Source of the DNA: Plazaster borealis
Lineage: Eukaryota; Echinodermata; Asteroidea; Forcipulatida; Labidiasteridae
DNA: 64,000 bases
Assembly (NCBI GenBank): GCA_021014325.1
Contig: CM037473.1
Span: forward strand, 21,194,822-21,258,821
Reading direction: 5' to 3'
This document shows, piece by piece, positions 2,737-55,574 of the stretch. Each line of letters begins with the position of its first letter. Position 1 is the stretch's first letter. The notes beneath the pieces are model-generated. The model did no database searches. It had not been told where the DNA came from and was given only the letters and a program-made list of their open reading frames with translations. A program made the translations under genes and the position numbers.

Positions 2737-2797
2737 ACCCCTCGGCCGCGCCATACCGAGGGGATTCAAACTATTTCCATCCATTTATCTGACACAG

Positions 2798-11551: not shown

Positions 11552-11923
11552 TTAAAGGGATTGTATTCGTTTGGGAATTGGAACCCACTGTATGTTTCAA
11601 TCCTATATAGTTAATAAAATTTCATTTCACAAGGTGGTAGCGATTTTGAGATATTGCTGAAAATCTGGAGCGGTTATGTCCACGCAGGAGGAATAATCTG
11701 CAATGAGTACACAATCTGAGCAATGTCACTACTGTCAGTAACGCTTCTCAGATTCAAATTGTTGGGGATAAAAAGTGATACATTTTTCCATAATCGCGGA
11801 ACTTCTAAGTGAAAAGTTTTTCAAAATGCATTTTACTATCCAAAGCTGCTGTACTTCTTACCAAGTAAGTTTTTATTGCCATTCATTTTCAGAGTCATTA
11901 CCAAACGTATACAGACCCTTTAA
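11552..11923. mobile_element. MITE family 2, copy 2
   Basis: A 372-bp element with ends TTAAAGGGATTGTATTCGTT and TATACAGACCCTTTAA. The interior carries the GGAGCGGTTATGTCCACGCA block common to this family. Lies between the Rab gene and secreted-protein gene A. Confidence 0.7.
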
Positions 11924-13057: not shown

Positions 13058-13115
13058 ACTAGAGCTGGATTTGAACCTGCGACCTCCGGATTAACGTTCA
13101 ACCTAAATTACTATA
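13058..13115 (-). repeat. tRNA-like module, partial
   Basis: On the minus strand it reads as an anticodon arm and T-arm (..AATCCGGAGGTCGCAGGTTC..), including a B-box-like GGTTCAAATCC. The 5' half and acceptor stem are missing. Related modules are at 23287-23356, 32866-32918, 33155-33210 and 61878-61938. This is a repeat derivative, not a working tRNA gene. Confidence 0.6.
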
Positions 13116-14849: not shown

Positions 14850-14928
14850 CTCAGGTGGGATTCAAACCCACGACCTTTGCCATACTTGAGCAGATGTCTT
14901 ACCTCTAGACCACTGAGCGCCCGGTAGC
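14850..14928 (-). repeat. tRNA-derived SINE-like module
   Basis: The minus strand carries an A-box-like TGGTCTAGAGGT and a B-box-like GGTTTGAATCC, flanked by CTCAG..CTGAG ends that could pair as an acceptor-like stem. The anticodon arm does not pair well. Two related modules lie at the matching place in unit B (34469-34548 and 34677-34748). Confidence 0.6.
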
Positions 14929-15425
14929 TATAGAGGCAATTCGAATTCACATTCCCGCTTAACCCAAGTCGGTGTTTGAATCATGAGAGAGAGGGAACGA
15001 GCACACACATTTTGCTTTTGTTATAAAATGAAGCCATAATCGCTCAGGATGGGTGATCATCAGAGACAATGTTAACCGCTACTGTACAAAATACTTGTAA
15101 CCTTTATGCCACCATCTTCGAGAAAAGTGTCCCTGGTCCGATCTTATGTATAGGCCTATCTGAAAATATTGTATAGATTACTAATTTCTTTATCAATTAC
15201 AATAAACAATCGACTTCACCGACTTACCGATTGGGTTTGAGTTTTTTTGAAGTCGCTGTGCCGTGTCTGTAATGCTGTTTTCTACTTACGTTCTCTGTCC
15301 AGAGTAACCTGAATTAAAAAAGGCACTGGAAGGCTGATGTTGAAACAAAAAATAAATTTCGCTTACAGAAGTATCTAGGTCTACAGAAAGTATAATTTGT
15401 TACTTTTTGATTGATGACGTATGAC

Positions 15426-30985: not shown

Positions 30986-31774
30986 TATTCCCAATAAAAA
31001 TGATATCGTTACTCATTGAGGAAAAAGGATGGTGTATGATTTAATGCGGCTATCACATCTTGGCTTTATACTTGTTTTTGTACAAAGGGAAGTTGCTATT
31101 TAAATATGGTATAAAAAGCCTGAACAAAATAATGACAATTTTCGAGTAGCAGTACTTTTATCAAGATAGATGGTGTTATATTTAAAAAGAAAAGTTTAGA
31201 GAATTTATGTCAATAAAAATGAAATTTTGTTTATAAACAATACCGGTACGTAAGGGAGTGTTTTTAAAAGTTGATTTTTACATAAAGTTGACATTTACAT
31301 AAAGAGATTCAATATCAAGAACCATAAAACAAATGAAAGTGTCTTAACAACTCATCGAGGGTATTTTTAAAACCAGGGTAGTTGATCGATCAATCTTCGG
31401 ATGAGCCAGCCAGCCTACTTCTTTTTATTTATAACTTAAGAAAGACTAACCACCAAAACCTATACACAAAAGAACAGTTACCACGTTTTTTTCTAAAGCA
31501 GCAATAAGAAGCCTTTATTTCAGTTTGCATTTCCAACTTATGCCTTTAAACAATTTGAAATCTAGCTACGACAACACTACAGTCATGACAATGTAAATGC
31601 TTATTTCAACTGTGTATAAATGATATTTATTAATCCCTTTTGTCCATTTCATGAAGGAGTTTTTTTCCACACAATTCTTCAAATTTCACATAAAAAATAA
31701 CAGAATGCAGTGAAGTACAGTAAATTTATCCATTGACCCTTGACCCTTGCACTTACGTGGCTACTGTGGTGTGC

Positions 31775-31840
31775 CATTTGGGGTGTCATTTGGGGTGTCA
31801 TTTGGGGTCTCATTTGGGGTGTCATTTGGGGTCTCATTTT
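31775..31840 (+). repeat. 12-bp short tandem repeat
   Basis: Five or so units of TTTGGGGTGTCA/TTTGGGGTCTCA. Confidence 0.85.
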
Positions 31841-32860
31841 GAATGTAAAGTTATGGTGCGTGGAAAGATACAATGAGTACTGCATATCGTTGCATGATGC
31901 CATCGTGGACTTATTGAGTGTCAGCTTGTAATTAAAAAGTCGCTAATACGCCAATTAATTTTTTTTAAATCTAAAGAAAATTAAGTTCCACAACTAGCAT
32001 GTCAGTTGTCTTGTTACCATCGTTTTGGGTTTTTTTAATAACAAAACCCATCAATAACCAGCTCTCCCGGAATTCCCTTAGGAATTGTACAGCAGTTACT
32101 TGACCTCGGGGTTAATAGCCACTACTTAGTGAAATGAACCATAGGGTTTACACATGGCTTCTTCTGTATGCTTGTACAATGGCTGTAAGCAGTGACCTGG
32201 TTGTTTAGTTTGATGAATTGAGTGAGGTGGTGTTGCAAGGACAAGTCAGACCATGGAGCTCCATGTGTAACACGCTATTATAAACTGACTGTTGAAAACA
32301 GTCGTATATAGTGCAAGCGTGTGCATATTTTTATGGTTTCAAGTAAAGTTGTATAAAGTCTACAAAGTATAAATGTGGGGTCATCTACAAATTATTTTTG
32401 CTTGAATTTGTTTTATTTAGTCAGAAGGGTCTATATTTAATGCTTTGGGCATTTTAAAAGTGATTTGGTTCTCCACAAGAATGTATTACACGCTAAAATC
32501 CAACTGTATACTAGTCCATGATGGTGTCCGAGTGTGAATTTGTTTTGATGGTGTCACGCAGGGATATGGTAATAACACACAAGCCTGAAATTACATGGAG
32601 GCCATGGCTTTTGTTGCCCCTGCTCTTAGCCTTGGTGTCCCTTCAAAAGTAGCCCAAATACTTAAAGATTTTTCCAATAGAAGTGCCCTTTGAAAATGGA
32701 AAATGTCCTTGCACTCTCCAATATGAAATTCCAGGCTTGAATACATGGGGAATCTGACTTCCAAAATGGCATAACTAAGAGTTATCATTGTTGATGATGT
32801 CAGGTGAATTTGGTCCATAGTGGCTGTAGTCATTACGGGCAAGTTCAAAACTTGAGCCTA
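31841..32860. other. No gene recognised
   Basis: Intergenic sequence in unit B. The minus-strand frame at 32591-32848 is open but has no domain. Confidence 0.5.
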
Positions 32861-32865
32861 TTCAA

Positions 32866-33210
32866 CGTCTGCATGGATTAACGTGCTGGCGCTCTACCAA
32901 CTCAGCTATCTAGCCATATGTTGGCAGTCTCCCTATTTTGTCAATATCTTTTTTCGGGGTGCCAGTAAGCCATTCAACCTGTAACTGTTATATATCCAGG
33001 GATCACACCCAAATTTACAAGCCGGGAAGCGGCAGCAGAGGGGTCACCTTAAACGGCCGGATGCGACTTTTTATTTCAAATATAAAGTAATAAACCCCAA
33101 GGGAAACCTGACTGGGTCAATTTTTACAATAATTTGGGGTTGAAAACAATTGAATAAAGCGGGATTTGAACCTGCGACCTCCGGATTAACTTAACGTTCA
33201 ACCTAAAATA
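32866..33210 (-). repeat. Two partial tRNA-like modules with their repeat body
   Basis: 32866-32918 carries ATTAACGTGCTGGCGCTCTACC and TCAGCTATCTAGCC; 33155-33210 carries GATTTGAACCTGCGACCTCC. The sequence between them resembles 23360-23560 (TTTTGTCAATATCTTT, TCGGGGTGCCAGT, GGGAAACCTGACTGGG). Each module is incomplete, so none is a tRNA gene. Confidence 0.6.
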
Positions 33211-34468
33211 CTAAAATTGCAAAAAATTAGTGCGATCCTGCAGATTCTTTTTGAAAGGGAATGAAAAAGCAGTTATAGCAGAATTGCATGAGCACCCTGT
33301 ATAGATTCCTTTGTAAATGCACCAGTGGTTTAATCAAACTGCTACTCTGAAATTTTTCTTTAAAAAAATTACAGCTCGGAGGAGGCATTGAATGTGGGAT
33401 TAGACTTTAGCCCAACACGCTCATCACAGTAGGCCTACTGCAGTACGTCAGCGGCCAAGGTGCATTATCTGGTGAAAATTGGTGCGAGCGCATTTCACAT
33501 GATGAACTTACACCATAGACCCTTTCCTGCATAGGCTCCGTCAGTAATTTTGAAAAAATTACACTTTCCGTATACGCGTACGTGGCTTACTGGACGGAGC
33601 CGACAGTTTCCGAAAAGGGCCCGCTATTTTATTTTTGTGCAGTTCGCGATACAGTGCGCCACCAAGAGTTTGTAATTGTTTTCACAATGCTAACGGTGAG
33701 GTGATGTATTGCTCCGTTTGGTGACAAAAGTAAGTTAATCTTATGATGTAATATGCTGCTTTGGGGGTTCTTAGGTCTACTCTTTCTCAATTTTTGTTTG
33801 TAAACTGGCAAGTCGGTGTTTCAGTTATTGGTTTTGACTGTATTCTCGCTCCAAAGACAATGTCCAACGAAGAGAAAGTTCATCATAAAAAGATTTGCGT
33901 CCTGGGTTGATGTTTCAATACACTTAATACATTTTTCTTAATATTTTCCACACAAAAAATAACAGTTAAAAATATATAATTAGGTTTACATGCTTTTGTA
34001 TAACTGCTATGACAAAATCAGCAACATCTAGCATCAGCAAAATCAAAATATAACAATAAATACTTAATTTGACAAAATATACAAATGTAATATTGAAATA
34101 TTGAACTTTCTAAAACAATTACTTACAAGACTTGGGCCTCGACTTGGGCCCCTAAGATTGTAAAGCTGGCTAGCACAATTCACTTAAATTATGCAATGAT
34201 TTAGTAGGATAAATAAAAAAGCAGACGTGATGCTAAATTAGAAAGAACAATATAATTCAAAGTAAAATGGAGGCAAAAAAACCGGTAAGAAGATACCGAA
34301 TCGGAAAGCCTTTTCAAAATAATGACATTGGAAAACAAACAAGTGGAGAATATAGACAAGTACGAAAAAAGTAAGGAAAAAACTGTTAAAACTGTTAAAG
34401 GGGAGAAAGAGACAAAGATTTAAACAAAAAATTGTTGTTCATCAATCATAGCTTCACATCCATTTTAC

Positions 34469-34748
34469 TCGGTTTGGATTCAAACCCACGACCAGAGCTT
34501 TCTTGAGCAGATGTCTTACCCCTAGACTAGAGCTTGCCCGATATAGCTCAAGGCAGTTCGAATCCTATAATTCAACAGCGGGTACCGCAACGATTTGCAT
34601 CGGAATATAGAATATTATTTGTGTTTTACCCGTACACCGATCGAGTCATATGGAACAAGTCCACTGACATATTACTCGGTAGGAATTCGAACCCACGACC
34701 ATTCTAGAGCAGATGTCTTACCACTAGACCACCAAGCTTGCCTGGTAG
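34469..34748 (-). repeat. Two tRNA-derived SINE-like modules
   Basis: 34469-34548 and 34677-34748 both contain, on the minus strand, an A-box-like TCTAGTGGTAAGACATCTGC or variant and a B-box-like GGTTCGAATTCC or GGTTTGAATCC. They match the single module at 14850-14928 in unit A. Confidence 0.6.
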
Positions 34749-34930
34749 CTAGAAGCAATTCGAATCCATATTCCTGCTTAACACACGTCGTTCTTGCTTC
34801 TATTACTCTGTGCAGAGTAGCCTGAATAAAAAAATCCTTGGGAGGCTGATGTTGAAACAACAAATTAATTTTGCTCACAGAGTATCTACATTTCGTATTA
34901 TTTGTTACTTTTTGATTGATGACGTCTGAC

Positions 34931-37900
34931 TCAGTTACCCAGACAAGTAAATGAGTTGATTCCATCCAGGCAACCATTTGGGCAATCGGCGCTGATACAG
35001 TTGTCAACGTCTAAAATACAAACAACATAATATGTGTTTAATTAGACGTAACGCACGGGTATCATTGCCTTTCCAGTAGCATCTATACTGCTGAAATCTT
35101 GTGAGGTTTGGTTTTGATTTTTCTGTGACTGAGAAAGTATTCCCCGCAGAAAGACTTGTTTGAAGCTTGTGTGGTAAACTTGTAACTCGTTATCAACCAA
35201 GATGAACCAACATTTACTTATATTTGAGAAAAAATTGAGCTATACATTCCTTTTGTAGTTGAGATACAACAAGAAATTAATTGTTTGCCATTCCGGTGAC
35301 AGAACTGGATAATAATAAACCTAATTTCCCCCTATAATTTATTTATTATAATGCTGGTTTATTTTGACTTTTTTCATTTTTTTTAAATCGATAATTTCAA
35401 GGATGAACAAACCTTTCCATTTTCATCCATTGGTTGAGGTAAATTTAAAAGATTTTTAAATTTAAGACTCGATAATGGAACTCAATTTAGGTTTATGGAG
35501 TTGTGTAGTATTTTTTCTTAGTTAGTTCTAATTGGACATCAAATCACCAATTAATTAAAACATTTACCTTTAAAGAAAATGGATAGTCCATTTGTAGGCA
35601 ATGGCACTTGAACCTTTGGAGCACAGTCTTCTTCGTGGTTCAGGAGGTCCACTCCAAATACTTCTTCCTGGAATGCGAATTTGGGAACATGGCACATGGC
35701 ATGACCCATACTAAGCGTGGAATCACAATCACAATGGTCATCAGCCAGCATCAAAGACTTCACACCAAACTCCATTTTGTACTGGAAAGAATATTGGCTC
35801 TTTGGTACATTTCCTGAAAACAATGGTGTTTTAAATTAGATCCACCCTTGAAAAGGGTATTAGACTCATAGAGTTAAATAGAACATGCAAATAAATACCC
35901 TTATTTATTTTCATAAAACGGCTTCTTTCGGTAACACCAAACGCATGTTACCCCTATGTGTGCTGCTTTAGGTTATCGGTGAAAAGTGCCATAAATATGA
36001 TTTTACAGTAAACAGAACTGAAGTGATTGGCACACTAGGTGCCTATACGTCCCATATGTTGGAACTACCATAATAATTGAAACAATGGTCTGATTCATTG
36101 TTTGATTGTTGCCCTACAGAAGGGAATTCACAGAACAAGTTGATATGCAGCATCGGAAATGTCTCTTTTGCGTTGCCAATACGCCCTCGAGCGACAATGT
36201 TCACCCAGGTCATTGTAACCAAGGACTTTCTCTCGAATTGTCACAAAAAAATTATCCAAAATGTTGCGGTTTTTTTAAAGTTTCAACAACGTTTTGCTTA
36301 AAAGTTTTGCCTAAAATGCTGTTCTGTCCTTGGAATATCTGTTTGAATATCCCATTTCATTTTAACCCCAAAATTGATGTCAACAAGGACATTTTACACC
36401 TCAAAATTGTAAATACTTGTACTTCGTAACTCAAAATTAACAGCACGCGGTAAAAAGTGCGCCCTCAGCGGGTTGTTCTACGACAGAACAGAGGGGTTCT
36501 AAATGAAATTCGGGCCTCCGTAAACAAGCGACTAAAAAGTTAAACTTATGAAACTTCTGTGTATTTTAGCTACATAATTAGCTCGAGGTTAAATGTGTTC
36601 ATATTATCAATAGATTTAGCTCCGTTACTGATAAGAAATGTGCTCCTTAGGCCATTTTAGAAAACCCTTTCCGAATAGGGCCTATACTGCAACCTCACGC
36701 GTACACATTATTCGGAGATGTCGTATATAAACTTAATACAACTATTGGTAATCACAATAATAACAGGACACTTCACAAAGGTGAAAAACCTTTATTCTGA
36801 TTGAGCAAAATGCATAGCACCGCGATACGGGACAGCCCATCCCACATGCAAAATTCGTATTTTATATAAATGAGCTTAGGCATACGTATATACACGTAGA
36901 AACAATCTTAATCGTACGAAAGCCCGTTAGTGCCATCATTTTTTTCGATAGCAGGTTTTTTTTCAAGAGCAGCTATTTTTTTGTTTTGCTCTCGAAAATC
37001 AAAATAACTGCTCTTGAAAAAAACAAACTGCTCTTGAAAATAAAAAAGTCACTGCTGTTGAAAATAAAGATAACTGCTCTCCAAATTAAAATAGCGATTG
37101 CATTACGGGCTTTCGTAAAGTCTAGTCGGTCTTGGGGCGCAATGCATTGGGTAATCAACTTCGACGCACACGTTTAATGGAACGTACCTTGAACAACTAC
37201 TGGATCCCATGCATTTACGTTTCTGACTGTTGATTCATTGCCGTCATGGAACGCACCCCACACTGCATGCGCAACGATGTTACTTGCATCAAATGTCCAC
37301 CTTAAAAAAACAGTGAGGAATTGTAAGAATTGTTCAAGGGCTTTTTGCAGACAAAGATTAAATTTGACTTGATTTTGTTTATATGTTGGCATAATTTGAA
37401 CTGTGATTTAAGAGATATTTTACTGAAACATAATAATTATTTGGTACCCAGTACATGAGGAGGGGCATTACCCATTTGTGCATGATTATAAATTGATCAT
37501 TTAATTAATAAAACTTAATTAGGAATAACATCATTAGTTTGATTGAAACCAGTGCATTATTTACCTGTAGACAGTCCCTGCTGAATCTTCAGCGAGTATT
37601 TCAGCGCCGTCTTCTTGTAAAGCTTCCGGCAAACGACTGAAACAGTACGGGGATTCAACATCACAGTCGCCATAGTTGTCTGGAAAAAATAGAATGCATG
37701 GCAAGAATAAGGTTTTAGAGAACTTGGATTCTCTGTTTTGAAAAATAAAAAAAGAACTAACAATCCTTGCATTATGGTTTATCTATTTGCAAAAAAATAG
37801 TTAATAGCCTGACGTTTCGACCCTAGCAGAGTCTTTCTCGAAGGATAAATGACAAGACAACACACATAAACAGGTTATAAGTGTAACAAAAGCATTCAAG

Positions 37901-40900
37901 TGGAAATACATGAATAGAGACAGAGAGCAAACAGACAATGCAAGGGGTAAACAATGAGTACGGAGACAGAGGGGGGGGGGTGGAGGGAGGGAGCTGGTCT
38001 GACCACAAGAAGTTGGAAACACAAAGAACAGGAACAAAGGTGGGAAGAGGGAGAACAAGTAATTAATTAGTACATGAGATAGGCTAAAAAAGGGGGATAT
38101 CTGTGGGGAAAAGGAGAAGGCAAAGACAAAAGGTTGTTAGTCATTTCCTTCTTGCCCTGTCTGTTTGCTCTCTCTGCCCCTATTCATGTATTTCCACTTG
38201 AATGCTTGTGTTACACTTATATACCTGTTCATGTGTGTTGTCTTGTCATTTAGCCTTCGAGAAAGACTCTGCTAGGGTCGAAACGTCAGGCCATTATCTA
38301 TTTTTTGCATTTACACTATAGGTCATTTTGGTTGGTAAGCAGTTTGCAACAGCTAATTCTATTTCATCACGGTTTATCTACTTGTTACCTTGGAGTACGT
38401 CAGTGACAGATGTTGGCCATGTGGTGTTAGCTTGATACCACCAGAAGAGTCTCCACCTTGCTCCGTCTAGCTCAATCACTGGGTACTCCATATCTACATA
38501 ACAGAAGAAAAAACGGTCAAACTTTAGATACATTTCTGGTTTTTTTGCATTTTAAATTAAGTTTCATGCGACAATGACTGGTTTGCCAATTTTTCTTTCT
38601 TCAACTCAATTGAATATGACCTATTTTGTTTTAAGAAACAAATTTAAGTTTTGGCCAGATTAATTGAAACTTGTAGAATTGTTCAAATGAGAAACGCTTG
38701 CAAACAGACCAAGTTTCTGGTAAGAATCACTAAATTTAGACGAAAGACACATTGCACATAATCGAGAAATCAGTGTCCATGGAAGATGAAATATGTTGTT
38801 CTCAACAATGCGTGTGCATAAACAGAATAACATTAACAATACCCTATGTGTAACGCTGCCACCTATCATTTCAAAGTCCTCAGTACAGTGACCTTACCAT
38901 GTGGAAGAGCTTTTCCCGGGCAACGGTCGTTTTTCTGCTCTATTACAGATGTAACCCATTTACCGATTTGGTTGGGGCCAGAGTCCGGATAAGAGCCGTA
39001 GTACAAAACTGTCATCTTGCCCTCAATCGAGCAAAGTAGAGCTTTTGGAAATAACGATAAAAATGAAATTAAACACACGCCTACAAAGATGTTTGTACAA
39101 AAAGATACAGCATGTCATTGGTGTTTGAAGCTTTGCATGATGTTGACAATGTAGTATAGGCCTGGTAGGCCTAGAACGTCTCGAAAGGCGATGGACTTTT
39201 AAACAAAGGGGGCGATTTTGCTTTGATAATTAGTGGCACTTGCGGCTGTGACTTGCAAGGCCTATCCGGAAGTGACAGTCACGATGGAAGCTCTGACAGA
39301 TAAAAGTCGAAGCAGCAGTTGATAGTTGCTTCCTTTCTCGTTGTGTTCATCCTCAAATTCTGACGTCACCGCGAACGGTTCCGGAGATGACTTTGTTTTG
39401 CTTCCAGCACTGCCTGTTAGGTGCTAAGGACTCTCAATTGGAAGGGGGCGATGGAACATGACTGCAGGTCTCTTATGAAGGCATCCTTGAAACGTAGGCA
39501 TGGTATTCTTGTTGCTCTCTTCCCAGTATGTAGCTCGCCATAAGAACAGGCCCGTTGGGAACCTCCCATCATTCATTCTTTGTATATGACCCAACCAGCA
39601 GAGTCTCCTTTGCCTTAGTATAGCAAAATTGGATTTGACGCCAGCCCTCCTCTGGACTTCACAGTTGGTTACGTTGTCCATCCAAGAGATGTTGAGAATG
39701 CAGCGAAGAGAGCGAAGACGAAGTGAGTGGAGTCGTTTCTCTTCCATCGAATATAGGACGGCCAGGATTCGCTGCCGTATAGCGGAGTGGGCAACAAATG
39801 CTCCATCATCGGCAAACAGGAGCATCCTAATGAGGACTTTGCGCACCTTCGGGCAAGGTTAAAGCGTCCACATCAAATATTGTATGTAAGTGAACATCTT
39901 CTTCTACAGTCCCAAAGGGACAAGAAAATCCTACGGACAAGAATATCCCAAACAGTAGGTGCAAGTACGCAGCCCTGCTTGACTCCAGGGCTGATTTTGA
40001 AGGCTTCTGATGTTGATCCGTCGAGCTGAACATGAAATGAGCGAATGAAGCTCGTCAGCTTCGGGGGACAGCCTATAACTTCCATGTACTTGAAGAGCCC
40101 ATCTCTACTGACTAGATAACATGCCTTAGTACGGTCGACAAAAGTTATATACAGAGGCCGAGGCTGTATGCAGTGCAAAAAGCCTTTGTCTATTCTCGTT
40201 AGTAGTAGGAAACCAAACGAGTAATTTGATATGCAGCGCATATCGACACGATTGGAATATATTTGAATTTTGACCCCTGTTTGACCTTTGTTGACCCCTC
40301 CCGGAAATGCCAGACATTTTCAAGGGGGCAGCCCAAGTCAAAATTGTTTGGTATTCATCAGGGAACACAAAAACACTTTCAAACCTTTGTTCCCAGAATT
40401 TGGTCACGGGACCTACAGGCTGGTCTCCTACTATGGTTTGCCCACTCCATGGGGACTAAGACACTCTTGCCAGGCAACACAGTCAGTGTCTACCCTGGCA
40501 TTAAAATCACCTTGCAGATTGGTCATGTAACCCTCGGGCAGGCATTAAAGTAGACAGTGTAGTTCGTCGTAAAACTTGTCCTTATCCTCAGCTGAAAAGG
40601 AAAGCATTGGTGCAGAAGCTGATATAATTGTCTTGAAGCAAACCAAGGAAGCAAGACACACCGAGGGGAGCCTCTCGTACCTTGCTGCGAAAGGGCTAGT
40701 TTCAGTCAGCAACGTGTTCTTGATGACGAACGCAACTCCATGCTCTCTACGCTCTTCAGTTTTTGGCAACCCAAAGAAAGAAAAGTGTTCTTCTCCCAAG
40801 GACTTGAACTGTGGTAGTTCTTTCGGTTGGAGGCTTGGGCTGGTTGAAAGTGAAGCTCTTGTATGTTGAGTTGTAGCGAATTATTGATGTGATGAAGTGA

Positions 40901-44541: not shown

Positions 44542-44802
44542 GTAACCCTAACCCTAACCCAAACCCTAACCCAAACCCTTACCCAAGCCCCCAACCCTAA
44601 CCTTAACCCTAACCAAACCTTAACCCTAATCCTAACCCTAACAACCCTAACCCTAACAACGCTAACCCTAACACCCCTTACCCTAACACCCCCAACCCTA
44701 ACAACCCTAACCCTAACCCTAAGCCTAAACAATAAAAAAAATCCTAACCGTAGCAACCCCCTAACCCTAACAACCCTAACCCTAACCCTAACCCTACCCT
44801 AA
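44542..44802 (-). repeat. Interstitial telomeric repeats (CCCTAA)n
   Basis: About 260 bp of degenerate CCCTAA units on the plus strand (TTAGGG on minus), including CCCAAA, CCTTAA and CAACCCTAAC variants. TTAGGG is the usual telomere repeat of deuterostomes. Degeneracy points to an old internal block rather than a chromosome end. Confidence 0.9.
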
Positions 44803-45267: not shown

Positions 45268-45273
45268 CGCGTC
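45268..45273 (+). other. Left target-site duplication CGCGTC
   Basis: Six bases, repeated exactly at 55569-55574. A 6-bp duplication is the expected size for Polinton/Maverick integrase. Confidence 0.85.
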
Positions 45274-45507
45274 AGTAGTATAGATGGAGGCACACACACC
45301 CCGTTCTCGGTTAGTATGCCAAAAGTGTACACAGTGTGCAGTGTGCACACCCACGGGCACACCCACCACCAGAAAAATTGCACACCCACGTGCACACCCA
45401 CCACCAGAAAAATGGTGGTGACTGTTTTTGCACACCTTAAAAATGGTACAAAAATCATAATGGCGGTAACGGTGTTTGCTCACCTGATAGTGGTGGTGCG
45501 AAGTCGA

Positions 45508-45852
45508 ATCACGCAGTGATGAGTCATTCGGCCCACGGCAGTGTTCCGGAGGCCTGAAAGGCCGAAGGCGAGTCACGTAGTGAGGAGTCGTTCGGCCCAC
45601 GGCAGTGTTCGGGAGACCCGAAGGGTCGAGACGTAGGAGTAAACATGATGCCTGCATCGTGTTGAGTGGTGTCTGTAAGACACCGCTTGAAATCTTGTCC
45701 CACGACAGTGTAACTGAGGGCAAAACCGTTATAGTTTAACCTCAGTTTAGCGGTGCGTTAGTGATTTCTTGAAATCACGGAGCGGCGCAGAGTCATACCA
45801 CGCAGCACAAACGAGCCGTGTACGGTTCGTTTGTATTTTCACAAAGTGAAAA
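45508..45852 (+). promoter_or_regulatory. Array of nine small DNA hairpins, left arm
   Basis: Successive perfect or near-perfect stems (loop): ATCAC(GCA) 45508-45520, GGCCT(GAA) 45551-45563, TCAC(GTA) 45573-45583, GACCC(GAA) 45615-45627, GATGC(CT) 45647-45658, GGTGTCT(GTA) 45668-45684, GTGATTTC(TT) 45761-45778, ACAAACGAGCCGT(GT) 45807-45834 and TTTTCAC(AAA) 45836-45852. Five loops are GNA on this strand, a loop type known to make very stable DNA mini-hairpins. The first four hairpins belong to two 62-63-bp direct repeats. A role in terminal replication or protein binding is inferred from position only. Confidence 0.8.
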
Positions 45853-46605
45853 CAAAGCAGTGTCTTCCACAACGCCGGTTAAGACATTGAGGAAGTAGAA
45901 AAGGCTGGTCAGTTAACCGTTCTGTAGTTGTTGTAATCCTTCAGTCTATATTACCATTGAATGAGTGCAATACTTAATGTCTTTTTTTTTTAACACTGAG
46001 ATGTATGTCTACAAAACAAAATAGTACAACCGCGTTGGACCTTGACCTGTTTGTTTGCACTCTGTGTGTGTCTGACCATACTTGTCCGGGCAAGTTTGTT
46101 GTTGCAGCTCACGTCACGCCTCGGCATTGAACACGTCGAGACTAGTTTTCTGATCAGTATCGCTATCTGGAGTGGTCAAAGTCCCAATTCAGCGGCGTTG
46201 GTTGGGTTCTGTTGTCGGTTGGTTCATCTACGTTATAGAGACAAAGTTCGCCGTTGAAACAATGGCAAGCGTGATCGGGCAGTATCGCTATCGGCTGGAG
46301 TGGTCAAAGACTCAAATTAGCTGCGTTGATTTGGGTTCTGTTTGTTCACACTCTTTGTTTGTTGCATAGGTTATGTCCATCAGTGGCCACTTGTGTGATA
46401 ATGACATGGGGTGTTAAGAACCACCAAGGCAAAGTTCAATAGGTTCGCAGTTTTTCTCCTTATGTTTTTTGTTTTTGATTTTTTTAGTTGAAGGCGATAT
46501 TTTTCTCGTGACGAAACTCGGTTGGTCAAGATTAAACAGATACCCACATACCCTTAAAAGAGCTTGATTCTTTCTTTCTGCCTCTTTTGTTTGTAAAATA
46601 ACAAA

Positions 46606-46875
46606 ATGCTTTCTTCCAAATTTGTGTTCTTTGACGAGTTGGTGAAGGTCGGGGGCTGTGTGCCGATTGCTGTGTTGGAGTATGCCAGGGGAGACTTAAA
46701 CAGCGACGAGTACTATCGTAGCTGGAACAATGTTTATCCCCCGAAAGAGCTCGTCAGTCCACGAGATGCCTTGCGCATTGCAATTTCTTTTGGCAACTTG
46801 CCCTACGCCCAATGGCTGCAGGCAAACATGTTGTATTTGGAAAACCCGGGCCTGAAAAGGCTCGGGAATGAGTAA
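46606..46875 (+). CDS. Small 89-residue Polinton ORF, left arm
   Basis: Starts MLSSKFVFFDELVKVGG and ends LENPGLKRLGNE. The frame is intact and gives an identical protein in the mirrored copy (53962-54231), unlike the polymerase gene, which is broken in both arms. Composition is protein-like (acidic and aromatic, no low complexity). I do not recognise a family. It stands between the terminal region and the polymerase gene and is read in the same direction as the polymerase. A C/T-rich tract follows. Confidence 0.55.
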   Translation: MLSSKFVFFDELVKVGGCVPIAVLEYARGDLNSDEYYRSWNNVYPPKELVSPRDALRIAISFGNLPYAQWLQANMLYLENPGLKRLGNE

Positions 46876-47246
46876 GCATCTACTGCTTATTCCCCCCCCC
46901 CCCCCATTTTTTTTTTTTCTTTTTCTTTTTTTTTTTCTCCCAGTTGTTTTGTTTTTTGTTGGGTTTTGGGGGTTTTGGGGGTTTTGTTTTTTGGGTTTTG
47001 TTTTTTGTTTTTTGTTTTTTCGTTTTTGGAGAGGGTGTGGAATCGACCCTTGAGTCCCCCTAACAGAACTGTGGCAGGTGGGTTCGGCCCATCCATCGCG
47101 ACCCAACACGTATCGACGTGTTTCAAAGGTCAACAGCTATTCACCAACAAGTTATAAAGCAGTAGTGTTGATCGGACGACGGCTCACACATCATCAGGGT
47201 GGTTTACAGTGCAGTATACCTCGATGGTGAACACAGTATTAGTATC

Positions 47247-47414
47247 ATGTCCCAGGAAAACATCGAATGGGGCCCTGAATTTACCGCCTCTCAAATGGAG
47301 GGTGTAGTCCGGCTGGTAAACAATGCGTCGCTACCAAACGTTGAATGGAGCCCTGATTTTACGGCCAGTCAAGTTCAGGAGATTGCGGAAATGGAAACAG
47401 TGGCGATCGAAGAG
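47247..47414 (+). CDS. Putative first exon before the Polinton polymerase, left arm
   Basis: An ATG opens 56 codons that end exactly at a GAG|GTAAGT donor. The peptide contains an internal duplication: EWGPEFTASQMEGV near residue 7 and EWSPDFTASQVQEI near residue 33. A phase-0 acceptor (TGTCACAG) follows at about 47566. How it joins the zinc-finger exon near 48 kb is unclear because frames there conflict in both arms. In the right arm the mirrored exon (53440-53606) has lost one base. Confidence 0.5.
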
Positions 47415-47979
47415 GTAAGTTAAAGTCTTAATGCAACTGTGTTTATCGTAATAACAATCACGCCAAAAAAAAAAAAAATAAATCAATCAATTGTGCCGAA
47501 CGAAACCCCTGTTATCGCCTCTGGTTTACTGTAGTATTCTCATTGGTATTATTTGTTTGTCACAGTGTCATCGACAACAGGCGGCCCTCGTCGGACCCGA
47601 CCGGTCGGCCTGGTCAGATAGTTGTTCTCCGGACACACCCGAGCAACGGAGGCTGGTTACGCCCCACAACCCGGCTGTTCGTTTTGGCCGGTTAGAAACC
47701 CTGAAACCCCACCTACACTGGTGTTTTCAGCAACTGGTGAAATGTCAAGCGACAACGACAACATCGCCGAGAGACCGATTAACTGGGTAAGAAATCTTCT
47801 ATTTTTCCCGCTAAACCGTTACAGTACAAAACAAGTGTAAGGGTGTGCTTTGTTAATTATTATTATTATAATTATTTGTTTTCCAGCCCCAGAAAGGAAA
47901 GGGTGGTAGTTCGCTGGACGGAAAAGACCTGCCTTTGTTCGAGCCAAGAGACGCAGAACATCAGACGTGGAACAGCCGA

Positions 47980-50420
47980 ACCGGGGTGAGAAGAGGCAGC
48001 CGGATAGCACTAGGTCGTATTTAGGTAAAACTAAAAAATCAAACAGTCTTTTGAATACTAGATTTACTTGTGATACCTGTGGAAAATCATATGCCCGTAA
48101 CTACACTTTGAAACGTCACAAAGAAGTTCATTCGGGTTTCAAAGGAGATTGTCCAACCTGTGGTAAAACTTTTAACAGTTCAGTTAGTTTAAAACGTCAT
48201 ATCAAAAGACACAACTCTCGCCTTTCCAAGACAAAACGCGTTCTCTCACGTTTACCTCAACCTGCGCCGCCGAAAGGGTCTGCCTGTCTCCTGAAGACTC
48301 GATCACATTTCCGATTCCTCCAAATGTTGACAATGGGGATAATGAGTTATTAACTCTTTATCGTAAAAACTGGGGTAGTATTAGGACTCATTACGTGCAT
48401 GGACGACAGACTCCGGATGTGTATAATTTGCGAGTGGGTCCTTCTTCTTCTCTGTCTGTAGGGTCTATCGGTGGTGAAGCCAGAGTAGAGCTAACTAATG
48501 GTGTGTCACTGGACGAGGGTTAAGGGTATTTTCCTACATTTTCGTGTAGAGTAAAACTAAACTTGTCGTTTGGGTTTGTTTTACGTAATATAGAGACGGG
48601 TGGTTTGCGTTATTACCATTCTAGTTTCAACAATGCGACTTTTCTACCACCCGGTCACTATAGCTTCAGAAGATGATTTTGAAAATTTTCTGGCAAAGGT
48701 ACACGATATGGACGTGCTGCAACACGCCCTACATGCACGTCCAGACACGAAGTGGGTCGTTGAAGATATCTGTAACGTCACCATGTATGCAAACAAAATG
48801 CCATCGTTTTACATCGGTGCAGCACCGCACCAATTACCCGATTACATCGCAAACAATGTGGGTTTAAACAATCTAATCAGTAATAGCCATTCCGGGGTCA
48901 GATACGAGGATAATTTTTGTTTGTTTAGATGTCTCGCCCTGAAACGCGGGAACGCTGTGGTCGCCCTAGAAACGTCCACCAGACACCTCGTCGGTAGATA
49001 CGAAATAATGCAAAAGCACCCCACTAAAGGTGTCTGTTTGGAAGACCTGCATCACCTTGAACGCATATTCAAAGTGAATGTCAGGTGTTCAGTCTCGTTC
49101 GTGAAGAATCTCTGGCGAACGAGACCGAAGAAGGGCGTACAGGGTAGTAGCCCGCCTGGTGCGGAGATCACTGTGTAAGCACAAAGAAACCATGAACGTT
49201 AACCTGTACGAATCTCACTTTTCGTACATAACAGATATGAACCGGTACAGTCAAGTTTTCTTGCCTAAATGCAATCAGGTGTGTAACAGAGCAGACAACT
49301 TAAGAAAACACGTGGCGCGATGCGACAAGGGTTAAACATAACTATCCGGGTGGGTGCTACCGCCTCCCAGAATCTGTATTCGACGAGTTGGTAGAAGTGG
49401 GTATAGAGATAGTTGAGAAATGAAGTATTACCCTTATCGCGCCACTTACGATTTTGAAGTGTATTTCAAACCAGTAGAGCAGGCTTTTAGAGAAATAAAG
49501 GGTCTCAAGCGCAACATGAGTTACTTAGTGTCAGTTTCACTAGTAACGTTCCCGGTTACAAACACCAGTCTGTTCCGTAACAGACGGAGATTCAGCCAAA
49601 CTAGTTTCTGAGATGGTGGCCTGGTTACACGGGGTGAGCGATGAAGCGTACACTATTTTGAGAGAAAAGTTTGAATATGTTTTTGACCAACTGGACATAC
49701 TAACGCACGAACAAGTAGCCGAACTTGAGCACGAGCGGTCTGGTCCTCCGACTCAGAAGTCTGAGGAGAGGTTCAGGAAAGACCCAAAACCAAGGCCGAA
49801 AAACTCATAGAAAAGTTTGAAGACTATCTCCACAAGCTTCCCGTTCTGGGGTTCAATTCTGGAAAGTATGACGTGAACGTCATGAAACGGTATCTGTACC
49901 AACAATTACATGGGTCTGAGAAACTATACATCATACGAAAAGCGAATGCGTATATGTCAATCAGCAATGACAATTTACTTTTTCTCGACATTACCAATTA
50001 TTTGGCCCCGGGTTGTTCGTACGCAAAGTTTTGAAGGCGTTCGAATGCTCCCAGACGAAGGTTTTCCCTATGAGTGGGTTGACGATCTCAACAAATTAGA
50101 CCATTCCGAATTGCCCCCTCACGAAGCTTTTTACAGCAACCTCAAGGGTGTAAATATTACTGAAGATGAGTACGCGTATTGTCAAAGGGTCTGGCGAGAG
50201 GAGGGTCACGAGACTTTCAGAGATTTTTTGATATGGTATAACAATCTGGACGTCGTTCCCTTTCTCGAAGCTGTCGAGAAAATGTTTTGTTTTACAAACA
50301 AAACGCATAGACATGTTTAGGTCGGCCATCTCCGTTCCCGGGCTGTCTCTACAGCATCTTTTTCTGACCAAACCACGAGATGTATATTTTTCCCTGATAG
50401 ATCATTCGAATAAGGACCTG
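47980..50420 (+). pseudogene. 5' half of protein-primed DNA polymerase B, left arm
   Basis: In order: two C2H2 zinc fingers (CDTC..H..H and CPTC..H..H, about 48067-48215); a conserved stretch with LYRKNWGSIRTHY; a segment with DNFCLFRCLALKRG (near 48909) that resembles the OTU-type DxxC(L)FR box; another Cys/His motif (CNQVC..H..C, about 49270-49325); and the 3'-5' exonuclease of family B polymerases, with Exo I YDFEVYF (49447-49467), Exo II FNSGKYD (49852-49872) and Exo III YNNLD (50237-50251). The frame is broken by several short indels. It ends at the palindrome centre just after FSLIDHSNKDLYH, before the palm, so motifs A-C are missing and no polymerisation is possible. Matches the organellar/viral PolB family (Pfam PF03175) by motif order. 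Confidence 0.85.
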
Positions 50421-50422
50421 TA
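50421..50422. other. Symmetry centre of the palindrome
   Basis: The sequence reads TAAGGACCTGT ATC ACAAGTCCTTA, with one mismatch next to the centre. The midpoint of the two termini (45274 and 55568) is also 50421. Confidence 0.9.
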
Positions 50423-52862
50423 TCACAAGTCCTTATTCGAATGATCTATCAGGGAAAAATATACATCTCGTGGTTTGGTCAGAAAAAGATGCTGTAGAGA
50501 CAGCCCGGGAACGGAGATGGCCGACCTAAACATGTCTATGCGTTTTTGTTTGTAAAACAAAACATTTTCTCGACAGCTTCGAGAAAGGGAACGACGTCCA
50601 GATTGTTATACCATATCAAAAAATCTCTGAAAGTCTCGTGACCCTCCTCTCGCCAGACCCTTTGACAATACGCGTACTCATCTTCAGTAATATTTACACC
50701 CTTGAGGTTGCTGTAAAAAGCTTCGTGAGGGGGCAATTCGGAATGGTCTAATTTGTTGAGATCGTCAACCCACTCATAGGGAAAAACCCTTCGTCTGGGA
50801 GCATTCGAACGCCTTCAAAACTTTGCGTACGAACAACCCGGGGCCAAATAATTGGTAATGTCGAGAAAAGTAAATTGTCATTGCTGATTGACATATACGC
50901 ATTCGCTTTTCGTATGATGTATAGTTTCTCAGACCCATGTAATTGTTGGTACAGATACCGTTTCATGACGTTCACGTCATACTTTCCAGAATTGAACCCC
51001 AGAACGGGAAGCTTGTGGAGATAGTCTTCAAACTTTTCTATGAGTTTTCGGCCTTGGTTTTGGGTCTTTCCTGAACCTCTCCTCAGACTTCTGAGTCGGA
51101 GGACCAGACCGCTCGTGCTCAAGTTCGGCTACTTGTTCGTGCGTTAGTATGTCCAGTTGGTCAAAACATATTCAAACTTTTCTCTCAAAATAGTGTACGC
51201 TTCATCGCTCACCCCGTGTAACCAGGCCACCATCTCAGAAACTAGTTTGGCTGAATCTCCGTCTGTTACGGAACAGACTGGTGTTTCGTAACCGGGAACG
51301 TTACTAGTGAAACTGACACTAAGTAACTCATGTTGCGCTTGGAGACCCTTTATTTCTCTAAAAGCCTGCTCTACTGGTTTGAAATACACTTCAAAATCGT
51401 AAGTGGCGCGATAAGGGTAATACTTCATTTCCTCAACTATCTCTATACCCACTTCTACCAACTCGTCGAATACAGATTCTGGGAGGCGGTAGCACCCACC
51501 CGGATAGTTATGTTTAACCCCCTTGTCGCATCGCGCCACGTGTTTTCTTAAGTTGTCTGCTCTGTTACACACCTGATTGCATTTAGGCAAGAAAACTTGA
51601 CTGTACCGGTTCATATCTGTTATGTACGAAAAGTGAGATTCGTACAGGTTAACGTTCATGGTTTCTTTGTGCTTACACAGTGATCTCCGCACCAGGCGGG
51701 CTACTACCCTGTACGCCCTTCTTCGGTCTCGTTCGCCAGAGATTCTTCACGAACGAGACTGAACACTCTGACATTCACTTTGAATATGCGTTCAAGGTGA
51801 TGCAGGTCTTCCAAACAGACACCTTTAGTGGGGTGCTTTTGCATTATTTCCTCGTATCTACCGACGAGGTGTCTGGTGGACGTTTCTAGGGCGACCACAG
51901 CGTTCCCGCGTTTCAGGGCGAGACATCTAAACAAACAAAAATTATCCTCGTATCTGACCCCGGAATGGCTATTACTGATTAGATTGTTTAAACCCACATT
52001 GTTTGCGATGTAATCGGGTAATTGGTGCGGTGCTGCACCGATGTAAAACGATGGCATTTTGTTTGCATACATGGTGACGTTACAGATATCTTCAACGACC
52101 CACTTCGTGTCTGGACGTGCATGTAGGGCGTGTTGCAGCACGTCCATATCGTGTACCTTTGCCAGAAAATTTTCAAAATCATCTTCTGAAGCTATAGTGA
52201 CCGGGTGGGGTAGAAAAGTCGCATTGTTGAAACTAGAATGGTAATAACGCAAACCACCCGTCTCTATATTACGTAAAACAAACCCAAACGACAAGTTTAG
52301 TTTTACTCTACACGAAAATGTAGGAAAAATACCCCTTAACCCTCGTCCAGTGACACACCATTAGTTAGCTCTACTCTGGCTTCACCACCGATAGACCCTA
52401 CAGACAGAGAAGAAGAAGGACCCACTCGCAAATTATACACATCCTGAGTCTGTCGTCCATGCACGTAATGAGTCCTAATACTACCCCAGTTTTTACGATA
52501 AAGAGTTAATAACTCATTATCCCCATTGTCAACATTTGGAGGAATCGGAAATGTGATCGAGTCTTCAGGAGACAGGCTGACCCTTTTAGGCGGCGCAGGT
52601 TGAGGTAAACGTGAGAGAACGCGTTTTGTCTTGGAAAGGCGAGAGTTGTGTCTTTGATATGACGTTTTAAACTAACTGAACTGTTAAAAGTTTTACCACA
52701 GGTTGGACAATCTCCTTTGAAACCCGAATGAACTTCTTTGTGACGTTTCAAAGTGTAGTTACGGGCATATGATTTTCCACAGGTATCACAAGTAAATCTA
52801 GTATTCAAAAGACTGTTTGATTTTTAGTTTTACCTAAATACGACCTAGTGCTATCCGGCTGC
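50423..52862 (-). pseudogene. 5' half of protein-primed DNA polymerase B, right arm
   Basis: Mirror copy of 47980-50420 with its own set of breaks: longer open stretches at 52294-51704 and 51692-51144, then shifts near 51170 and 50740. Exo I lies at 51401-51381. The zinc-finger part has a one-base loss near 52655 that the left arm lacks. The two polymerase fragments point toward each other, 3' end to 3' end, so read-through transcription from either arm would give a perfect hairpin RNA. Confidence 0.85.
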
Positions 52863-53439
52863 CTCTTCTCACCCCGGTTCGGCTGTTCCACGTCTGATGT
52901 TCTGCGTCTCTTGGCTCGAACAAAGGCAGGTCTTTTCCGTCCAGCGAACTACCACCCTTTCCTTTCTGGGGCTGGAAAACAAATAATTATAATAATAATA
53001 ATTAACAAAGCACACCCTTACACTTGTTTTGTACTGTAACGGTTTAGCGGGAAAAATAGAAGATTTCTTACCCAGTTAATCGGTCTCTCGGCGATGTTGT
53101 CGTTGTCGCTTGACATTTCACCAGTTGCTGAAAACACCAGTGTAGGTGGGGTTTCAGGGTTTCTAACCGGCCAAAACGAACAGCCGGGTTGTGGGGCGTA
53201 ACCAGCCTCCGTTGCTCGGGTGTGTCCGGAGAACAACTATCTGACCAGGCCGACCGGTCGGGTCCGACGAGGGCCGCCTGTTGTCGATGACACTGTGACA
53301 AACAAATAATACCAATGAGAATACTACAGTAAACCAGAGGCGATAACAGGGGTTTCGTTCGGCACAATTGATTTATTTTTTTTTTTTTTGGCGTGATTGT
53401 TATTACGATAAACACAGTTGCATTAAGACTTTAACTTAC

Positions 53440-53606
53440 CTCTTCGATCGCCACTGTTTCCATTTCCGCAATCTCCTGAACTTGACTGGCCGTAAAATCA
53501 GGGCTCCATTCAACGTTTGGTAGCGACGCATTGTTTACCAGCCGGACTACACCTCCATTTGAGAGGCGGTAAATTCAGGGCCCCATTCGATGTTTTCCTG
53601 GGACAT
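53440..53606 (-). pseudogene. Mirrored first-exon copy, right arm
   Basis: Inverse copy of 47247-47414 with a one-base loss in a G run that shifts the frame after the first FTASQ motif. The donor is retained. Confidence 0.55.
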
Positions 53607-53961
53607 GATACTAATACTGTGTTCACCATCGAGGTATACTGCACTGTAAACCACCCTGATGATGTGTGAGCCGTCGTCCGATCAACACTACTGCTTTATA
53701 ACTTGTTGGTGAATAGCTGTTGACCTTTGAAACACGTCGATACGTGTTGGGTCGCGATGGATGGGCCGAACCCACCTGCCACAGTTCAGTTAGGGTGACT
53801 CAAGGGTCGATTCCACACCCTCTCCAAAAAAAAAAACAAAAACAAAAACAAAACCCAAAACAAAACCCCCAAAACCCCCAAAACCCAACAAAAACAAAAC
53901 AACTGGGAGAAAAAAGAAAAAGAAAAAAAAAATATGGGGGGGGGGAATAAGCAGTAGATGC

Positions 53962-54231
53962 TTACTCATTCCCGAGCCTTTTCAGGCCCGGGTTTTCCAA
54001 ATACAACATGTTTGCCTGCAGCCATTGGGCGTAGGGCAAGTTGCCAAAAGAAATTGCAATGCGCAAGGCATCTCGTGGACTGACGAGCTCTTTCGGGGGA
54101 TAAACATTGTTCCAGCTACGATAGTACTCGTCGCTGTTTAAGTCTCCCCTGGCATACTCCAACACAGCAATCGGCACACAGCCCCCGACCTTCACCAACT
54201 CGTCAAAGAACACAAATTTGGAAGAAAGCAT
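53962..54231 (-). CDS. Small 89-residue Polinton ORF, right arm
   Basis: Encodes the same protein as 46606-46875 without any break. A G/A-rich tract follows. Function unknown. Confidence 0.55.
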   Translation of the reverse strand: MLSSKFVFFDELVKVGGCVPIAVLEYARGDLNSDEYYRSWNNVYPPKELVSPRDALRIAISFGNLPYAQWLQANMLYLENPGLKRLGNE

Positions 54232-54989
54232 TTTGTTATTTTACAAACAAAAGAGGCAGAAAGAAAGAATCAAGCTCTTTTAAGGGTATGTGGGTATCTG
54301 TTTAATCTTGACCAACCGAGTTTCGTCACGAGAAAAATATCGCCTTCAACTAAAAAAATCAAAAAACAAAAAAAACATAAGGAGAAAAACTGCGAACCTA
54401 TTGAACTTTGCCTTGGTGGTTCTTAACACCCCATGTCATTATCACACAAGTGGCCACTCGATGGACATAACCTATGCAACAAACAAAGAGTGTGAACAAA
54501 CAGAACCCAAATCAACGCAGCTAATTTGAGTCTTTGACCACTCCAGCCGATAGCGATACTGCCCGATCACGCTTGCCATTGTTTCAACGGCGAACTTTGT
54601 CTCTATAACGTAGATGAACCAACCGACAACAGAACCCAACCAACGCCGCTGAATTGGGACTTTGACCACTCCAGATAGCGATACTGATCAGAAAACTAGT
54701 CTCGACGTGTTCAATGCCGAGGCGTGACGTGAGCTGCAACAACAAACTTGCCCGGACAAGTATGGTCAGACACACACAGAGTGCAAACAAACAGGTCAAG
54801 GTCCAACGCGGTTGTACTATTTTGTTTTGTAGACATACATCTCAGTGTTAAAAAAAAAAAGACATTAAGTATTGCACTCATTCAATGGTAATATAGACTG
54901 AAGGATTACAAGAACTACAGAACGGTTAACTGACCAGCCTTTTCTACTTCCTCAATGTCTTAACCGGCGTTGTGGAAGACACTGCTTTG

Positions 54990-55334
54990 TTTTCACTTTG
55001 TGAAAATACAAACGAACCGTACACGGCTCGTTTGTGCTGCGTGGTATGACTCTGCGCCGCTCCGTGATTTCAAGAAATCACTAACGCACCGCTAAACTGA
55101 GGTTAAACTATAACGGTTTTGCCCTCAGTTACACTGTCGTGGGACAAGATTTCAAGCGGTGTCTTACAGACACCACTCAACACGATGCAGGCATCATGTT
55201 TACTCCTACGTCTCGACCCTTCGGGTCTCCCGAACACTGCCGTGGGCCGAACGACTCCTCACTACGTGACTCGCCTTCGGCCTTTCAGGCCTCCGGAACA
55301 CTGCCGTGGGCCGAATGACTCATCACTGCGTGAT
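54990..55334 (-). promoter_or_regulatory. Array of nine small DNA hairpins, right arm
   Basis: Exact mirror of 45508-45852, from TTTTCAC..GTGAAAA at 54990-55006 to ATCAC..GTGAT at 55322-55334. No length change relative to the left array. Confidence 0.8.
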
Positions 55335-55568
55335 TCGACTTCGCACCACCACTATCAGGTGAGCAAACACCGTTACCGCCATTATGATTTTTGTACCATT
55401 TTTAAGGTGTGCAAAAACAGTCACCACCATTTTTCTGGTGGTGGGTGTGCACGTGGGTGTGCAATTTTTCTGGTGGTGGGTGTGCCCGTGGGTGTGCACA
55501 CTGCACACTGTGTACACTTTTGGCATACTAACCGAGAACGGGGTGTGTGTGCCTCCATCTATACTACT

Positions 55569-55574
55569 CGCGTC
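55569..55574 (+). other. Right target-site duplication CGCGTC
   Basis: Identical to 45268-45273. The flanks beyond it differ from those on the left. Confidence 0.85.

Follow-up and report, generated by a model that had tools for sequence, protein, structure and literature searches.

A 64,000-nt stretch of the Plazaster borealis genome (contig CM037473.1, hereafter the window) contains, at 45274 to 55568 (C19:21240095–21250389 of the assembly), a palindromic Polinton derivative. It probably arose by snap-back as a free copy underwent protein-primed replication, and would then have been inserted by the proteins of complete Polintons. Polintons have AG..CT termini and are flanked by 6-bp duplications, and their replication has so far mostly been deduced from the polymerase gene. 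Also called Mavericks, they are described as self-synthesizing DNA transposons (PMC6431247).

Inverted-repeat pairs tile 45274–50421 against 50425–55568, giving arms of about 5.15 kb and confirming the end-to-end palindrome described in the initial annotation. Its 3-base center was recovered as a loop at 50422–50424 when the two halves were aligned, and its reading of the AG..CT termini and of CGCGTC on both flanks as a 6-bp target-site duplication (45268–45273 and 55569–55574) agrees with the edges, AGTAGTATAG on the left and CTATACTACT on the right. The symmetry ends at the termini, and the adjoining host DNA is not mirrored. The alignment of the halves spans 5173 columns, of which 5109 are identical, 12 mismatched and 52 gapped, and the whole element is free of N bases. 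Small indels make up many of the differences between the arms and may reflect errors of assembly. A chance origin of the palindrome was rejected, as the arms are 5 kb long.

The left arm (45274–50421, + strand) is a Polinton polymerase-side end running from the terminus inward, and its first 928 positions (45274–46201, + strand) are a terminal inverted repeat, which the parents also have at their far end. A fragment of the N-terminal part of pPolB, with two C2H2 fingers followed by the N-terminal polymerase region, lies at approximately 47846–50428 (+ strand), as judged by homology to a 1219-aa frame in the parental copy C22; no one open frame covers the whole fragment in this element. The right arm (50425–55568, − strand) is an inverted second copy of the same end, carrying the mirrored pPolB fragment at approximately 50425–52996 (− strand) and the terminal inverted repeat at 54641–55568 (− strand, inner edge approximate). 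As the arms hold only this broken part of pPolB, the element has no polymerase and integrase genes of its own and is therefore a non-autonomous derivative rather than an autonomous Polinton.

A search of the same assembly for full-length parents yielded four copies (C22, C1, C602 and C7) of 14.2–17.4 kb, one end of which matches the full length of the window arm (positions 1–5151, 98.4–98.8% identity). Genes in these relatives uphold the Polinton assignment of the initial annotation. They include a DNA_pol_B_2 polymerase, encoded in C22 by the 1219-aa frame (PF03175, E 8.7e-12), an rve integrase (E 3e-8 in C22; E 3.4e-9 in C602, with a chromodomain) and an A32/FtsK-type packaging ATPase (PF04665, cut-off 22.8 bits; C602 scores 32.6 bits and C22 falls below the cut-off). 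A candidate adenovirus-like cysteine protease scored 19.9 bits, where the cut-off is 21.3 (PF00770, E 6e-4), and a Pfam-only scan of 19 frames gave no match to a capsid family of the jelly-roll type. The terminal repeats, expected to be a few hundred bp long, instead measure 928 bp, or 2057 bp in C1, where polymerase-side sequence 1–2057 is present at the far end.

Comparison with the parents exposes the point at which the sequence turns back. All four read AAGGACCTGTATCACAA followed by AATAAGG and continue past 50428. The window element shares these 17 bases but continues with GTCCTTATTCG, which is the preceding sequence in reverse complement. Its center (50417–50429) reads GGAC-C-TGT-ATC-ACA-A-GTCC, with the 3-nt loop, a 3-bp TGT/ACA stem and a C/A mismatch (50418/50428), beyond which pairing resumes outward. 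Both arms thus derive from the polymerase side of the parent and are joined at a point inside it, which supports the snap-back reading proposed in the initial annotation. The match to the parents is limited to their polymerase-side 5.15 kb, and the rve integrase has its place elsewhere (the integrase and ATPase frames occupy the other half of the parent), which makes integration in trans the natural inference. The missing genes and the full-length relatives together suggest that the element would depend on a helper and may have arisen during replication.

Under this mechanism, as the polymerase family would suggest, a new strand would start at the polymerase-side terminus and extend inward with strand displacement. 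About 5.15 kb in, at the observed turn point, its 3′ end would fold back through TGT/ACA and be extended to the terminus again. The result would be a linear palindrome, each end of which has a replication origin and an integrase-recognized terminus; the two termini are indeed identical, and their use in trans would leave the 6-bp CGCGTC duplication that we observe. Against snap-back, the window hairpin is just 3 bp long with a mismatched 3′ A, and the termini and duplication of a single copy could survive conversion between inverted repeats after insertion.

We also compared alleles between the window arms and the four parents. Outside a low-complexity stretch there are 34 clean variable sites. 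At 28 of these a single parent stands apart from the rest, and the window arms agree with each other at every one (28/28), following the majority at 24 and C22 at 4; the remaining 6 are private to one window arm. The arms differ from each other at 13 of 4657 clean columns (7 within the low-complexity stretch) and from their nearest parents at 13–16, so that they are not clearly closer to each other. We therefore dropped arm identity as proof of an origin from one molecule; the parents are too alike for it to demonstrate within-molecule copying.

The window element is not the sole palindrome in this genome. The copies studied come from the 40 top-scoring members of a set of 85 first-look candidates in this assembly. 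None of them shares the center of the window element, which the initial annotation had suggested searching for, and many palindromes have other centers. A second palindrome of about 8.1 kb is found at about ten loci or more, with one common center and different target duplications. This center corresponds to a natural 62-bp stem-loop in C10, a non-palindromic copy with long terminal inverted repeats, and the switch lies at the outer end of the stem. The stem has 61/62 pairs, and as single-stranded DNA the region folds at −92.4 kcal/mol (z −20). The 8.1-kb palindromes retain the native imperfect stem-loop of C10, and fixed left/right differences are confined to it (27 columns in the inner 420 bases per side of nine copies); in a whole-arm comparison of five copies, all 25 fixed columns lie at most about 100 columns from the center. 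A folded strand is thus visible in this family.

The stem also bears on how the family spread. A derived T and A in the right stem are present in 8/8 readable two-sided copies (L013, L014, L015, L018, L019, L021, L024 and L028; this stem is unread in L022 and L041), and a derived C in the left stem in 9/10, L024 being the exception. C10 and the likewise non-palindromic L017 lack these bases, which disfavors independent formation of every copy.

Arm copying within the 8.1-kb family was followed at 115 clean variable sites. Seven are confined to a single element and present in both of its arms. Another 77 occur in a single arm, through late mutation or an error of assembly, and the other 31 are common to several elements, many of them separating the C10 subfamily. 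Shared sites 579, 704 and 1874 of the alignment occur in both arms of every carrier; sites 2745, 2748 and 2927 run counter to arm copying. In a shuffle test on 12 sites, which omits one-arm singletons, arms were discordant at 6 element-sites against a shuffled mean of 29, and none of 5000 shuffles was as low.

In an alternative course, a normal Polinton was inserted and break repair between its inverted ends later replaced one half with an inverted copy of the other. Such a chromosomal event would equally keep both termini and the duplication, and exchange between the ends does occur, as the far end of C1 attests. However, the copied tract would have to stop exactly at the break, and the 8.1-kb palindrome would be left unexplained: with one center at about ten loci and different duplications, it must have moved as a palindrome. 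We consider a chromosomal origin unlikely.

Other designs extend the snap-back reading beyond a single case. L027 is a foldback with a 460-nt spacer, taken from near the right end of the long-TIR element represented by C10, and L023 is an asymmetric foldback that derives from the main family, at its integrase-side end, and keeps an integrase frame. As in the window element, both ends in these designs come from one parental end and are joined inside the parent. At least four different turning points are therefore represented here, one of them multiplied, and the same process likely operated in at least three further events (the 62-bp stem-loop of the 8.1-kb family, L027 and L023). Both arms of L027 carry the C10 right-arm allele at 8/8 diagnostic sites, and the 8.1-kb copies likewise have like arms at 8/8, while the arms of non-palindromic L017 are unlike at 4/8.

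If two free Polinton copies had broken and been joined head to head ahead of integration, this would suit the very short homology at the window center and the roughly 2 bases (an estimate by eye) where L027 turns. Yet each palindrome tested has like alleles in both arms, and random breaks would not select the native stem-loop of the 8.1-kb center or keep its imperfect pairing, making this route improbable. An artefact of assembly or library (missed-adapter palindromic reads or collapsed repeats) is very improbable: the indel-rich arm differences suggest imperfect polishing, and one center (C521, on a 155-kb contig) is a 2.5-kb palindrome with no termini within 8.5 kb, but read artefacts would mirror the host flanks, which are unlike beyond the 6-bp duplication at the edges of the window element, and the 8.1-kb center recurs on many large contigs.

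Our census covers 21 copies: the window element, L013–L029 (L025 and L026 counted as one) and the four parents. Six are end-to-end palindromes (the window element, L013, L014, L018, L021 and L022), three (L015, L019 and L024) are almost complete, with an indel on one side, and one each has the 460-nt spacer (L027), an unseen terminus (L028) or an asymmetric form (L023). Three are lopsided with the 8.1-kb center (L016, L020 and L029), two are non-palindromic long-TIR copies (C10 and L017), and four are the parents. As only the best-scored 40 of 85 candidates were studied, copy counts are lower bounds. Excluding the window element, which has one too, 6-bp duplications flank 16/19 two-ended copies, the exceptions being L013, L024 and C602. 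The palindromes are therefore mobile. We infer that they formed on free replicating DNA and were moved in trans.

Adenoviruses, with a protein-primed linear genome, yield symmetric defective genomes in which an end is duplicated, as here, though theirs reside in viral particles and ours in chromosomes. MITEs and fold-back transposons are also non-autonomous, dominated by inverted repeats and mobilized in trans; here, however, the inverted repeat is the entire 8–10 kb element, and its origin from the end of a longer relative is legible at the turn point. The window element and its relatives share long terminal inverted repeats with Polintons (PMC6431247). Their AG..CT termini and 6-bp duplications are Polinton features too, and the parents carry the polymerase, integrase and A32-like ATPase. 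Unlike a Polinton, the window element lacks any complete gene and mirrors a single end; the remaining designs mirror different ends or a long-TIR satellite. AAV snapback genomes, in the account of PMC8235507, can stem from either moiety, left or right, and come in symmetric and asymmetric forms. They are self-complementary and span the same range as the elements here, from symmetric to looped, but occur in viral particles under rolling-hairpin replication, whereas ours sit in the genome as integrated copies of a transposon, and one design has multiplied (PMC8235507). Foldback inversions in yeast also involve hairpin-mediated inverted duplication, but of a chromosome rather than a mobile element (PMC7467729). 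For phi29 polymerase, switching onto an already made single strand has been modeled in rolling-circle reactions in vitro (PMC4176320).

We read the palindromes as snap-back, defective-interfering-like Polinton satellites, with putative interference. More tentatively, Polintons may own a defective-interfering genome class turned heritable satellite family, born by snap-back at hairpins and multiplied in trans as palindromes. During free replication the two arms would serve as templates for each other, with the central loop remaining asymmetric, and two identical origins and integrase sites would be kept; hairpin RNA or surplus zinc-finger proteins might let them silence the parent or outcompete it. 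Snap-back derivatives with turn points legible against longer relatives would be sequence fossils of one-ended synthesis on a linear molecule. They suggest that the terminal region is sufficient in cis and that virus-like transposons yield satellites much as viruses yield defective genomes. A 5-kb inverted repeat with part of a Polinton polymerase gene is also a possible chromosomal source of double-stranded RNA against the parent. Long palindromes are unstable, and the persistence of 8–10 kb palindromes at many loci is surprising in that light.

A scan of viral_contigs with one exact 27-base terminal pattern gave no match. The zinc-finger frames of the 8.1-kb palindromes were considered as a piece of the parental pPolB, but the match is weak (18/48 residues over generic fingers). 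The center search also returned one-sided matches at further loci (C5:16168666, C15, C6:16311975 and C4).

The window element is palindromic from end to end (45274-55568), with inverted pairs tiling 45274-50421 against 50425-55568; in the alignment of the two halves, 5109 columns are identical, 12 are mismatched and 52 contain a gap. The left terminus is AGTAGTATAG and the right terminus its complement, with CGCGTC flanking the element on either side. The pair tiling and half alignment thus bear out what the initial annotation had claimed, an end-to-end palindrome with matching termini and CGCGTC on both sides.

The window lies at C19:21194822-21258821 of the assembly (560.6 Mb, 717 contigs). 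Searching the assembly with the element's first kilobase, with the best 40 of 85 first-look candidates scored, uncovered many inward-facing end pairs. Four of them, on contigs C22, C1, C602 and C7, span 14.2 to 17.4 kb and, at just one of their ends, match the full 5151 bases of the window arm with 98.4-98.8% identity; at their other end, the shared bases number 928, or 2057 in C1. The full-length parent with the same termini for which the initial annotation had proposed to search is therefore present in four copies. The search for further copies of the window's own centre, proposed alongside it, returned none among 25 candidates, all scored, and only the window matches across both sides. The polymerase stretch (all 13 candidates scored) occurs once in each parent and twice in the window, with the other matches at 74-81%.

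The C22 polymerase carries C2H2 fingers and a DNA_pol_B_2 match. The parents encode an rve integrase, to which C602 adds a chromodomain, and C602 also encodes an A32-like ATPase and has a weak adenovirus-protease match. No capsid genes were identified in the parents' scanned frames. Judged by their predicted polymerase, integrase and ATPase genes, the parents are Polintons. At the far end of C1 (piece L033, 2228-4282), polymerase-side sequence 1-2057 replaces the element's own first 3.3 kb, an exchange between ends that lengthened the terminal repeat. Near the integrase-side end of C22, a frame with PC4 and WW domain matches (piece L030, 1138-1860) is, to our knowledge, unusual cargo for a Polinton.

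At the turn point, all four parents read AAGGACCTGTATCACAA-AATAAGG, whereas the window reads AAGGACCTGTATCACAA-GTCCTTATTCG. The last bases before the turn could form the hairpin TGT-ATC-ACA, followed outward by a C/A mismatch; past this fold the window sequence is the complement of the sequence preceding it. The two window arms and four parents have 54 clean variable columns, 20 of which fall within a single low-complexity stretch (columns 1635-1748); the window arms differ at 7 of these. Outside that stretch, 28 of 34 columns have a single parent differing from the rest; the window arms agree at every one of the 28, siding with C22 four times and otherwise with the majority, and the remaining 6 are private to one window arm. 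This pattern suggests a single haplotype in both arms. A joining of two like copies is a possible alternative, since the 13 differences between the arms are not clearly fewer than the 13-16 that separate them from the nearest parents. A mirrored read is argued against by the symmetry itself, which stops at the termini, where that of such a read would not.

Apart from the parents, most end pairs are not normal elements. Loci L013, L014, L018, L021 and L022 (7.9-8.15 kb) are palindromic over their entire length, and L015, L019 and L024 are the same palindrome with an indel in one arm. The arms of this 8.1-kb family comprise window positions 1-1509, carrying a 61-base insert and followed by ~2.5 kb of other sequence that is absent from the fetched parent ends, to which the comparison is confined. 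The palindromes have a single common centre. When all 21 candidates for this centre were scored, eight loci matched both sides fully and two nearly; two non-palindromic relatives with long terminal repeats, C10 and C1:20689985 (L017), matched as far as the stem's end, diverging thereafter, and the remaining matches were one-sided or weak. One of the eight, on C521 (L041, 3009-5531), is palindromic for only 2.5 kb, with no termini within 8.5 kb on its 155-kb contig, and is either a truncated copy or an assembly error. L013 contains a mirrored pair of open frames that face outward and have C2H2 fingers plus an extended acidic tail (3274-4068, minus strand; 4314-5300, plus strand); such frames recur in L014, L018 and L021. 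One arm of L019 carries a 1.1-kb insertion (3570-4711) with no counterpart among the other loci compared with it.

The C10 copy (pieces L025 and L026) is 12.6 kb long; its terminal repeats measure 3.8 kb and its core is non-palindromic. A 62-position stem with a single mismatch, and a longer imperfect inner stem, are found immediately inside the left repeat; folded as single-stranded DNA, the stem region gives −92.4 kcal/mol (z −20). The 8.1-kb palindromes retain this native stem-loop and switch to the copied arm at the stem's outer end. Fixed left/right differences occupy 27 columns, all in the stem-loop (nine copies, inner 420 bases per side); across whole arms of five complete copies there are 25, all less than about 100 columns from the centre. 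This confinement to the centre is what extending a folded 3′ end would leave. Derived stem bases, absent from C10 and L017, are common to most of the palindromes, making a single origin with subsequent multiplication the more likely course.

Between its left and right repeats, C10 shows differences at 28 columns. Once C10-only differences, simple tracts and the four innermost columns, at the trimmed end, were set aside, eight remained (285, 477, 1023, 1024, 1719, 1829, 1841 and 2379, the last retained though in a tract). At these, all 20 arms of ten 8.1-kb copies agree where they can be read: five columns have the C10 left allele and three the right. In the four set-aside inner-end columns the arms mostly carry the right allele. 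Given this mixture, the alleles do not tell the family's source end; the centre does. The arms of non-palindromic L017 are unlike at 4/8 columns. Within the family, variants at sites 579, 704 and 1874 are in both arms of every carrier, and 7 more, each confined to a single element, likewise occupy both its arms; 77 variants are in one arm only, and three clean shared sites contradict arm concordance. These patterns suggest that either the arms were copied from one another during multiplication or the palindromes formed repeatedly from an unseen parent.

Locus L027 is palindromic and derives from the right end of a C10-type element (arms 101-4221 and 4681-8786); its turn has ~2 bases of overlap, judged by eye, and both arms carry the C10 right-arm allele at all eight columns. 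L023 traces to the main family, the type of the window element and its parents, and there to the integrase-side end. Its right arm runs ~7.1 kb inward, turns near L038:3818 and resumes near L038:1273, and the return arm carries two deletions and ends at a matching terminus. An open 379-aa integrase-chromodomain frame is retained, its 5′ edge at the turn. Counting the window, the 8.1-kb family, L027 and L023, there are four distinct turn points, and both kinds of ends are represented.

Six-base duplications of differing target sequence flank 16 of 19 two-ended copies, the window's own being additional; L013, L024 and C602 have no matching duplication. Turn points, like arms, termini, duplications and full-length relatives are direct observations at the sequence level. 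Because end pieces differ by few substitutions (mates 0-22, mostly <10, over about 1.5-1.6 kb), activity appears recent in relative terms.

Polymerases of the protein-primed type start at one end of a linear molecule and displace a strand as they copy. A growing strand that folded on itself and was extended back to its start would yield a linear palindrome of one end, and a molecule with two proper termini should be replicated and integrated by the proteins of complete copies. We infer the replication stage, priming and helper dependence of the palindromes along these lines. For phi29 polymerase in rolling-circle reactions, one study concludes that switching to an already made single strand occurs (PMC4176320). 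Such fold-back molecules are described for adeno-associated virus, left or right and symmetric or looped, in another (PMC8235507); the Polinton palindromes cover the same range but are known here from integrated sequence. Among the papers listed by searches of the open PMC literature, no title or abstract opening describes palindromic Polintons, weak evidence of absence given that subscription papers lie mostly outside it, and 'palindrom' is absent from the text of a Polinton paper (PMC6431247).

Elsewhere in the window, about a dozen blocks, each 80-200 bases long, recur between 10726-20340 and 30987-39082 (82-97%, spacing 18.7-20.3 kb), a pattern suggestive of an older large direct duplication. 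A degenerate telomere-like (TAACCC)n array lies at 44543-44802, ~0.5 kb left of the palindrome.
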